From assembly GCA_024635665.1 (NCBI GenBank), contig JAGXIM010000087.1, forward strand, positions 1 to 32,124: a DNA stretch of 32,124 bases, written 5' to 3'. Shown here in pieces: positions 21,432 through 22,377 of the stretch; within the stretch, counting starts at the first letter, position 1, and every line of letters begins with the position of its first letter. Source of the stretch: Salinimicrobium sp. (GTDB lineage: Bacteria > Bacteroidota > Bacteroidia > Flavobacteriales > Flavobacteriaceae). Both the position numbers and the translations under genes were made by a program. Under the pieces are notes generated by a model. That model was given only the letters and a program-made list of their open reading frames with translations. It did not search any database and was not told the DNA's origin.

Positions 21432-21722
21432 ATGTATTTAGAAATAGTTACTCCCGAAGCAGTCCTTCTAAGTTCAGAAGTGGATTCTGTGAGTGTGCCG
21501 GGAATCGGCGGGCAGTTCCAAATGTTGAACAATCACGCCCCGATAGTTGCTGTTCTGGGCAAAGGTGAAATCAAGATATATACCCATTCCAGCAATATTG
21601 CTTCTGAAGAATTGTCGAAAGACTTCAAAAAGGATAAAGTAGATAGCAAGATCCTTATTCTCCCTTTAAATGGCGGCGTGATTGAAATGAAAGATAATAA
21701 AATCATAGTTTTGGCAGATTAA
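21432..21722 (+). CDS. atpC: F1Fo ATP synthase subunit epsilon, short form
   Basis: The start is set at 21432 (MYLEIVTPEAVLLSSEVDSV) and not at the upstream in-frame ATG at 21408, which lies in the TTGGAAT repeat and would add eight repeat-coded residues. The 96-residue product has the N-terminal beta-sandwich of epsilon, including the PGIGGQFQMLNNHAPIVAVLGKGEIKI segment (about 23-49), which binds gamma and the c-ring. The C-terminal two-helix domain seen in E. coli or Bacillus epsilon (about 130-140 residues) is missing, so helix-based inhibition of ATP hydrolysis would not be possible. A strong terminator follows the stop codon. Confidence 0.93.
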   Translation: MYLEIVTPEAVLLSSEVDSVSVPGIGGQFQMLNNHAPIVAVLGKGEIKIYTHSSNIASEELSKDFKKDKVDSKILILPLNGGVIEMKDNKIIVLAD

Positions 21723-21733
21723 GCTGAAAAAAT

Positions 21734-21783
21734 AATAAAAGCAAAAAACCTGTTGCAGCTGCAACAGGTTTTTTGCTTTTATT
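21734..21783 (+). terminator. 50-bp perfect palindromic terminator after atpC
   Basis: Positions 21734-21783 form an uninterrupted perfect palindrome centred between 21758 and 21759 (core CCTGTTGCAGCTGCAACAGG). The transcript gives a stem of up to about 23 bp with a tiny loop, and the right arm includes the T-rich segment TTTTTTGCTTTT. The left arm is A-rich, so it could also terminate transcripts from the opposite strand. Confidence 0.9.
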
Positions 21784-21786
21784 GGG

Positions 21787-21846
21787 TTGGGCTAAAGCCC
21801 TAATTACTGGGAAATTTTGTTCCTCCGGCTAAAGCCGGAGGCAATT
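21787..21846 (-). repeat. REP-like paired-hairpin unit 1 (inverted orientation)
   Basis: Hairpin 1 is CCTCCGGC-TAAA-GCCGGAGG (21822-21841), preceded on the minus strand by AATTG. Hairpin 2 is GGGC-TAAA-GCCC (21789-21800). Read on the minus strand, it has the same order as units 2 and 3: AATTG, hairpin 1, about 20 nt, GGGC-TTTA-GCCC. Confidence 0.75.
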
Positions 21847-21978
21847 TATCAATTCAGGATCTTCCCCATACCTTTTGGGGCATCTAGTCAGGATCCTCAT
21901 AATGAACCATATTTCCAGAGAAAAATTGATTTAGCTCAACTTTTAGTTGGGATGATAGCCAGAAAATTTTAAGAAATG

Positions 21979-22047
21979 AATTGCTACAGGCTTCAGCCCG
22001 TGGTTAAGAGAATTGTAACATTAACAGGGCTTTATCCCAATTTAGGG
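21979..22047 (+). repeat. REP-like paired-hairpin unit 2
   Basis: AATTG is followed by hairpin 1 (CTACAGGC-TTCA-GCCCGTGG, 21984-22003, one mismatch and one wobble pair) and a degenerate hairpin 2 (GGGC-TTTA-TCCC, 22027-22038), then AATTTAGG. It aligns with unit 3 along nearly its whole length, so the two are direct repeats about 270 nt apart. Confidence 0.75.
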
Positions 22048-22248
22048 AACTTTTGCCAAAAGTATATCCATAGCGGGTATCCAAAAATGTGCTTTTGGAT
22101 AAATATTTTCTGAACAGCAATTGCCACAGCTTTTATCAGAGTTGAGTATCATTTTTTTCAGCTTTGCAGCCAAACTAGCCAATTGGCTAAATAAAAAAAT
22201 GTATTTCTACAGACTTTTTCCAGCTTGAAAAAGGCTGTTATGTACATT

Positions 22249-22316
22249 GAATTGCCACAGGCTTCAGCCTGTGGTCAAGAAAAGTGGATTTTTAATGGGC
22301 TTTAGCCCAATTTAGG
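22249..22316 (+). repeat. REP-like paired-hairpin unit 3
   Basis: GAATTG is followed by hairpin 1 (CCACAGGC-TTCA-GCCTGTGG, 22255-22274, perfect 8-bp stem) and hairpin 2 (GGGC-TTTA-GCCC, 22297-22308), then AATTTAGG. Compared with unit 1, two stem positions differ on both arms so that pairing is kept. Confidence 0.8.
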
Positions 22317-22377
22317 ATCAAGTGTTTGTGCTCTTAGGTTTCAACAGAGTCGGGCAAAAGAAAATTGTTGCCAAAAC

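Follow-up and report, generated by a model that had tools for sequence, protein, structure and literature searches.

A dispersed two-hairpin repeat of Salinimicrobium and its probable mover, an IS200-like Y1 nuclease

Introduction

Downstream of the ATP synthase epsilon chain gene in a genome of Salinimicrobium lie three copies of a short unit built of two hairpins. What are these units, and what could have spread them? The stretch of DNA analysed here, called the window, is 32,124 nucleotides long and corresponds to contig C83 of a genome (G000) of 2.16 Mb that is 76% complete. The repeat cluster sits between atpC and a gene for an M61/PDZ peptidase (assigned by Pfam). A sequence-only reading of the window had proposed REP/BIME elements moved by a REP-associated transposase (TnpA-REP), or else a structured RNA. 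As a rule, REP elements go with a domesticated family of transposases, one distinct from the transposases of insertion sequences (IS).

Three two-hairpin units follow atpC

The gene upstream of the cluster, atpC (ORF at 21432..21722, plus strand; Pfam ATP-synt_DE_N, 63.8 bits), was detected in all 12 genomes of the genus and served as the anchor for locating the equivalent site in the siblings. The units, of about 63 nt each (about 60-70 nt in the sequence-only reading), share one order: the tag AATTG, an 8-bp hairpin with a TTYA loop, a spacer of about 20-22 nt, and a GGGCTTTAGCCC hairpin. This is the anatomy given in the sequence-only reading (which put the spacer at about 20 nt), and both the sequence and a covariance model of the family, R1, bear it out, as they do the strands, units 2 and 3 being direct (+, +) and unit 1 inverted (-). 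Unit 1 (21787..21849, minus strand; R1 72.7 bits, E 4.4e-18; fold z -3.3) has the tag TAAATTG on the complement, hairpin 1 CCTCCGGC-TTTA-GCCGGAGG at 21822-21841 and hairpin 2 GGGCTTTAGCCC at 21789-21800. Unit 3 (22247..22310, plus strand; R1 68.5 bits, E 6.5e-17; fold z -4.5) has the tag TGAATTG, hairpin 1 CCACAGGC-TTCA-GCCTGTGG at 22255-22274 and hairpin 2 GGGCTTTAGCCC at 22297-22308. Unit 2 (21976..22040, plus strand; R1 49.9 bits; fold z +0.3), with TGAATTG, hairpin 1 CTACAGGC-TTCA-GCCCGTGG at 21984-22003 and hairpin 2 GGGCTTTATCCC at 22027-22038, is decayed: two positions of the first stem and one of the second do not pair, and an exact pattern misses it. Units 1 and 2 form an inverted pair with tags inward and a gap of 126 nt, the commonest arrangement of the family. 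Allowing one mismatch, GGGCTTTAGCCC occurs three times in the window against 0.29 expected.

A half-unit had also been claimed at 22119..22174 (plus strand), where AATTGCCACAG-CTT is followed by CAGCTTTGCAGCCAAA. By eye it shares 11 letters (AATTGCCACAG) with unit 3. With its filters off, R1 gives no match there; its best score in 22050-22240 is 1.2 bits, in another register. The half-unit is at most a relic, and the decay that it was taken to signal is found in unit 2 instead.

Other repeats occur in the atpC gap. Directly after atpC, a perfect, loopless 25-bp inverted repeat at 21734-21783 resembles a two-way terminator, and similar hairpins are visible by eye 3' of atpC in the siblings. A different repeat, GCTCCTCCGGAGCT with its complement, is present in the atpC gap of seven siblings (L186, L187, L190-L194) and absent from the window. 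At L085:1464 a copy of GCTCCTCCGGAGCT precedes a distant Y1 match by 37 nt, a possible hint at what moves this repeat. When GCTCCTCCGGAGCT was tested as a part of the same system as the units, it was present at L085 only among the loci fetched for Y1 genes.

The units belong to a dispersed, covarying family

A pattern of tag plus first hairpin, with at most one mismatch, is found in 10 of 12 genus genomes and in none of 48 others, the reversed pattern being found in none. The 57 units extracted from the fetched loci have a modal length of 63 nt and show 27 distinct combinations of stem arms, a single mismatch being present in some. R1 was built from 35 of these 57 (39 diverse ones were available), taken from sibling genomes and from other contigs, and none from the window. 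A covariance search of the genome and its relatives, as the sequence-only reading had advised, gave at least 206 matches in 11 of the 12 genus genomes when 40 genomes were searched: at least 7 in G000, 3 in G002, 11 in G003, 6 in G004, 12 in G005, 28 in G006, 10 in G007, 48 in G008, 20 in G009, 32 in G010 and 29 in G011, counts that may be low because 133 candidates were scored per genome. G001, which is 74% complete, has no match. R1 finds nothing in the 13 genomes of the same family outside the genus, and two of 15 order-level genomes are positive (at least 33 matches in G040 and at least three in G042).

The first hairpin covaries. Five of its eight stem pairs are changed on both sides, and 96.8% of cells pair. 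Across the whole structure, sliding the partners lowers pairing from 96.0% to 26-48%. The paired fraction is inflated because units were picked for at least seven of eight pairs; the information in this test lies in how varied the compensated pairs are. In 500 shuffles, the observed score, percentage and number of double-change cells were never reached; the number of double-change pairs was reached in 31 and the number of pair types in 37, these being two of the five whole-structure measures. Dispersed copies and covariation, on which the sequence-only reading had staked its case, are thus both present.

The units are also mostly paired and extragenic. The orientation count took the 150 of 242 R1 matches that were listed, plus unit 2 of the window, 151 in all, which form 77 clusters, 34 of them single. 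Among the 30 clusters of two, 25 have the order -+, that is, tags inward (p 3e-11 against an expectation of one quarter). In 800 kb of G008 and G006, where ORFs of at least 150 aa cover 80% of the DNA, none of 46 matches lies half or more within such an ORF; the 46 are not independent because 16 of them sit in one array.

The limits of the unit are sharp. In 69 Salinimicrobium and 102 other units, the consensus reads TGAAT[T/A]G, hairpin 1, about 20-22 nt, GGCTTTAGCC and (A/C)AA. A T two letters before AAT[T/A]G is conserved at 95-97% and an A three letters after GGCTTTAGCC at 93-100%; beyond these, conservation is near background. Selection of these rows required hairpin 2 and the last three letters of the tag, and left the first four tag letters and the rest free. 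The units are, then, a dispersed, extragenic, mostly paired repeat of Salinimicrobium, a genus of marine bacteria.

A single-copy Y1 gene lies inside the hairpin arrays

Y1_Tnp matches number 38 in nine of the 12 genus genomes, eight of these genomes having matches over the family cut-off. Arrays of the same hairpins enclose four of the 38, in G006, G008, G009 and G010. Identity to the query protein from G008 is 81-100% for these four and 47% for the next of all 38 examined; each of the four carriers has one gene copy of this clade. All four genes occupy one orthologous locus beside a gene for a calcineurin-like phosphoesterase (Pfam Metallophos). In six siblings that have the phosphoesterase neighbour without the Y1 gene, no tagged hairpin is found at that place. 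The flanking units are arranged in inverted pairs and do not form a single left end and a single right end on the same strand.

A Y1 gene flanked by the same hairpins, which the sequence-only reading had suggested looking for, therefore exists in four siblings. The window's own genome, 76% complete, yielded no such gene: the 149-aa query is unmatched there at E 1e-5, and the neighbouring phosphoesterase marker gene is also missing. Two candidates for the enzyme or its remains were rejected. L003 (G000:C142:2391-2522) scores 21.5 bits on Y1_Tnp, below the cut-off, and the 149-aa query is unmatched there at E 1e-3; it holds a 58-aa open frame and is apparently a broken copy of another Y1 clade. 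A fragment in G011 is 85% like a member of another clade (L059). All six complete siblings without the gene have units, in the numbers given above (from at least 3 in G002 to at least 29 in G011), and G011 exceeds two of the carriers.

The protein of the hairpin arrays is 149 aa long, and its best match of solved structure is IS608 TnpA (E 1e-6). It scores 62.5 bits on the NCBIfam IS200/IS605 model, over the cut-off of 55, and 29.6 bits on the curated RAYT/TnpA-REP model, below the cut-off of 80, where four related proteins score 32.4-37.9 bits. The control, E. coli RayT, reaches 179 with the RAYT model and is unlisted for the IS200 model. The motifs of the protein are DHCH, WQ and YIKNQEEHH. 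Residues Y114, Q118, H121, H122 and W94 are present in 40/40 stop-free homologues, so the signature is Y---Q and not Y---NP; of the catalytic residues, the second His and the Tyr are found in 40/40 and the first His in 39/40. The count covers 40 of 56 homologues and leaves out two that are out of frame and 14 with a stop in the matched range, which in 13 of the 14 falls within the last seven codons of that range. WQ is present in the four genus proteins. By its Y---Q--HH signature, WQ and length of about 148 aa, the predicted enzyme fits TnpA-Y1 subclass 1.2.

The association extends beyond the genus

A protein scan of 84,980 species genomes gave 80 loci that were kept; nine of these are partial matches, and the counts cover the other 71. 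Within 500 bp of the gene, a tagged hairpin is present at 28/35 loci of at least 66% identity (two of the 35 being Salinimicrobium), at 9/21 loci of 50-65% identity and at 0/15 loci of less than 45%. Within these loci the hairpins cluster near the gene. In the first class 61 are near it in 34.2 kb and one is far from it in 177 kb; in the second, 18 are near in 19.8 kb and none far in 85 kb. Pooled at 50% identity or more, this amounts to 79 hairpins in 54 kb near the gene against one in 262 kb far from it. Below 45% identity none is near and one is far, in 76 kb, and the reversed-tag control gave none in any class. No tagged hairpin was found near the gene at 7/35 and 12/21 loci of the first two classes, some of which are cut by contig ends.

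In other Bacteroidota the first stems are lineage-specific, and the tag, loop and second hairpin are the same. Hairpin 2 stands 18-30 nt after 74/83 tagged hairpins outside Salinimicrobium, compared with 1/83 in an upstream control; it played no part in picking those 83. Some of the loci are labelled Ignavibacteria, Calditrichia, Planctomycetales or Deltaproteobacteria, mostly on MAG contigs.

Copies away from the gene were sought in 14 genomes picked for such a stem at the gene, the innermost stem pair being left free; the reversed control gave 0. Nine Flavobacterium genomes have 7-42 pattern copies each, many as +- pairs about 100 nt apart. The other five of the 14 (three Lacihabitans, a Bacteroidetes MAG and a Saprospiraceae MAG) gave 1-4 copies, so dispersal is established in two genera, Flavobacterium and Salinimicrobium, and in G040 through its R1 matches. 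Outside Salinimicrobium, R1 matched G040 and G042 alone, and both encode Y1 proteins of the same clade (67% and 56% identical, respectively). In the 13 R1-negative genomes of the same family, the enzyme was not found at E 1e-20 in 12, and one (G020) has a match of 34% identity.

Hairpins at other Y1 genes

In the genus, many other 1.2-type genes are flanked by their own hairpins; L038, L040 and L056 show none. A second clade (L043, L044, L051 and L052; 45-47% identical) is accompanied by hairpins of the form ATAG-CCCCGGGT-TTNA-ACCCGGGG. This set occurs in G003, G007, G009, G010 and G011, the first four of which carry the corresponding Y1 gene; it is found only beside the gene in G003 and G009, with copies elsewhere in G007, G010 and G011. 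L051 is the one further locus of the 38 with tagged hairpins under the wider tag AAT[T/A]G, and they are those of its own clade, with the CCCCGGGT stem. Of 44 loci, 36 were classed (31 as other 1.2-type, four as the clade described here and one as NP-type), and eight were left unclassified. At the 31 further 1.2-type loci a repeated stem lies within 500 bp of the gene in 17/31, as against 3/31 in more distant DNA, with 88 hairpins in about 31 kb near the genes and 44 in 123 kb far from them.

Longer Y1-type proteins of the genus (L057, L058 and L061-L063; 188-205 aa) adjoin other inverted repeats, for example GCGAAGTC-GACTTCGC at L058 and L062 and AGACCTAACAGGTCT-AGACCTGTTAGGTCT at L061 and L063.

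History of the atpC site and possible signs of movement

Units 1 and 3 represent two subfamilies, both of which are met again in the siblings. G006, G008, G009 and G011 have units of these subfamilies 3' of atpC, ordered -, + (in G006 the second is broken). G005 and G007 have there one unit, or one and part of another, and G003 and G010 have apparent relics. G001 and G002 have no units 3' of atpC, and in G004 the contig stops 115 nt after the gene. Because units recur at this site across siblings, the cluster appears to be old in the genus, and in the window it looks inherited and partly decayed.

The sequence-only reading had noted that units 1 and 3 differ at two stem positions on both arms with pairing preserved, and had taken this to mean that the fold is what is selected or mobilised. 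The double-sided changes are real. Since the two units belong to different recurring subfamilies, however, the changes separate those subfamilies, and the differences at the atpC site across species are mostly one-sided decay (judged by eye, uncounted). This would fit a fold that is important when copies spread, rather than in every copy already in place.

Signs of movement were sought in the collinear DNA of G008 and G006 (35 blocks of at least 1 kb, 78-96% identical, mean 93%). One unit pair of G008 is absent from G006, which has about 50 unrelated nt at that place; a clean insertion boundary with a target site was sought in this comparison and none was obtained. At G008:C10:667844-669646 (L258:7844-9646), the counterpart of a single pair in G006 is an array of 16 alternating units, amplified with a repeat length of about 232 nt. 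Carriers of the gene have at least 20-48 units and complete non-carriers at least 3-29 (exact rank test, p 0.04), a marginal difference from four against six genomes with kinship ignored, to which G011 is a clear exception.

What moves the units?

The units are probably a non-autonomous, REP/BIME-like repeat, and their most likely mover is the single-copy IS200-like Y1 (HUH-tyrosine) nuclease of TnpA-Y1 subclass 1.2. IS608 has the right guide GAAT and the right cleavage site TCAA (PMC5934647). By analogy with it, mobilisation by the subclass 1.2 enzyme could proceed as follows. The enzyme would bind hairpin 1 on single-stranded DNA with the GAAT tag as its guide, and would cut at or near the conserved unit ends. 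Units or pairs would thereby be moved or amplified into extragenic DNA. The way of working is that of REP/BIME, and the enzyme is from a different, IS200-like subclass, not from the same family. The earlier proposal of REP/BIME elements moved by TnpA-REP accordingly holds for the dispersed, extragenic inverted pairs and the flanked Y1 gene, and fails for the enzyme, whose RAYT score of 29.6 is below the cut-off of 80.

The units could instead be miniature, MITE- or PATE-like derivatives of an active IS200/IS605 element, the Y1 gene and its flanking units being that element. The curated model does place the enzyme in the IS200/IS605 family, the tag GAAT equals the IS608 right guide, the units are sharp-ended, and they end in (A/C)AA where IS608 has TCAA. 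However, among the 38 genus Y1 matches the gene is single-copy for its clade in each of the four carriers and sits in one orthologous place, the units flank it as inverted pairs rather than as a left and a right end on one strand, and the account at PMC6006769 has subclass 1.2 as low in copy number and lacking IS properties. Taken together, this makes a miniature IS origin unlikely.

A structured RNA, or a terminator or mRNA-stabilising element, would also show stable hairpins with compensatory changes, and the units do lie 3' of atpC in most siblings. An Rfam scan of the window at gathering thresholds gave nothing, however, and the units occur in both orientations, are mostly paired head to head, and cluster at Y1 genes in unrelated genera. 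The structured-RNA alternative of the sequence-only reading is accordingly disfavoured and quite improbable as the primary identity of the units, which may have a secondary effect on mRNA.

Ordinary REPs moved by a class-2 TnpA-REP (RAYT) enzyme, a reading to which the REP-like anatomy, pairing and dispersal would lend themselves, are the least probable of all, scarcely to be credited, given that the tag is not GT[AG]G, that the flanking enzyme falls below the RAYT cut-off and over the IS200 one where E. coli RayT does the reverse, that none of the six other Y1-type proteins of the genus considered (L057, L058, L061-L064) is flanked by these hairpins, and that the gene actually sitting inside the unit arrays contradicts it.

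Going further than the single-copy IS200-like nuclease as mover of the units in the genus, subclass 1.2 as a whole may be a second, separately domesticated branch of IS200-like enzymes, each clade with its own REP-like satellites. The clade associated with the window's units would act on a unit of two hairpins, with GAAT and the terminal CAA preserving the guide and cleavage logic of IS608, a first stem that changes fast and sets specificity, and a second hairpin that stays constant across phyla. We give this broader proposal about an even chance.

Comparison with known systems

The system resembles the E. coli REPtron (REP/BIME with RAYT) in its short tagged hairpins, inverted pairs, extragenic dispersal, lineage-specific stems and a Y1 gene embedded in the same hairpins. 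Unlike the REPtron, the enzyme is IS200-like subclass 1.2 and not class 2, the tag is (T)GAAT[T/A]G and not GT[AG]G, and the units have a second, nearly invariant GGCTTTAGCC hairpin. In REPINs, said to have been described by Bertels and Rainey in 2011, inverted hairpin pairs are reportedly the unit of dispersal. The inverted pairs seen here are alike in this respect and differ in enzyme class and tag. Within the present family the Salinimicrobium pairs are mostly tags inward, and the listed Flavobacterium pairs are often outward.

The members of subclass 1.2 described at PMC6006769 share with the Salinimicrobium enzyme a length of about 148 aa, WQ, the YIKNQ-EHH signature, low copy number and occurrence in Bacteroidetes; the HUH motif differs, being DHCH here and DH[IV]H in the table. 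The same account has subclass 1.2 generally without the typical terminal structures of IS200, and its Table 1 (Quentin et al., 2018; PMC6006769) enters "no" for the subclass in the REP column. In contrast, hairpins are found here at 28/35 loci of at least 66% identity, and therefore a subclass recorded as REP-less has REP-like satellites. With IS608 and IS200/IS605 the system shares the enzyme family and GAAT, the IS608 right guide (PMC5934647). Unlike IS200/IS605 elements, there are no IS-like gene copies in the genus and the units occur as separate repeats, and unlike IS608 the tag is 2 nt from the stem.

Related repeats and genes have been named in Bacteroidetes. The RepRanger table names two Flavobacterium species (PMC12306157), and CGTC repeats are named in Bacteroidetes in a paper on GTAG- and CGTC-tagged repeats (PMC3733652); words starting AATTG, AATAG or GAAT occur 0 times in the text of either. 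RayT genes are named in Chryseobacterium, with no repeats described alongside in the relevant part of that paper (PMC11194056). No report of REPs for subclass 1.2 was found in the accessible portions of the open-licence literature.

Significance

The IS200-like enzymes described here come with a REP-type satellite population, in a subclass recorded as lacking one. They provide an independent case in which to study how an IS transposase turns into a keeper of REPs. The constant tag, loop and second hairpin, together with the variable first stem, form a natural series for testing the co-evolution of enzyme and hairpin. For the organisms themselves, an intergenic repeat found in the genomes of Flavobacterium and Salinimicrobium now has a likely identity.
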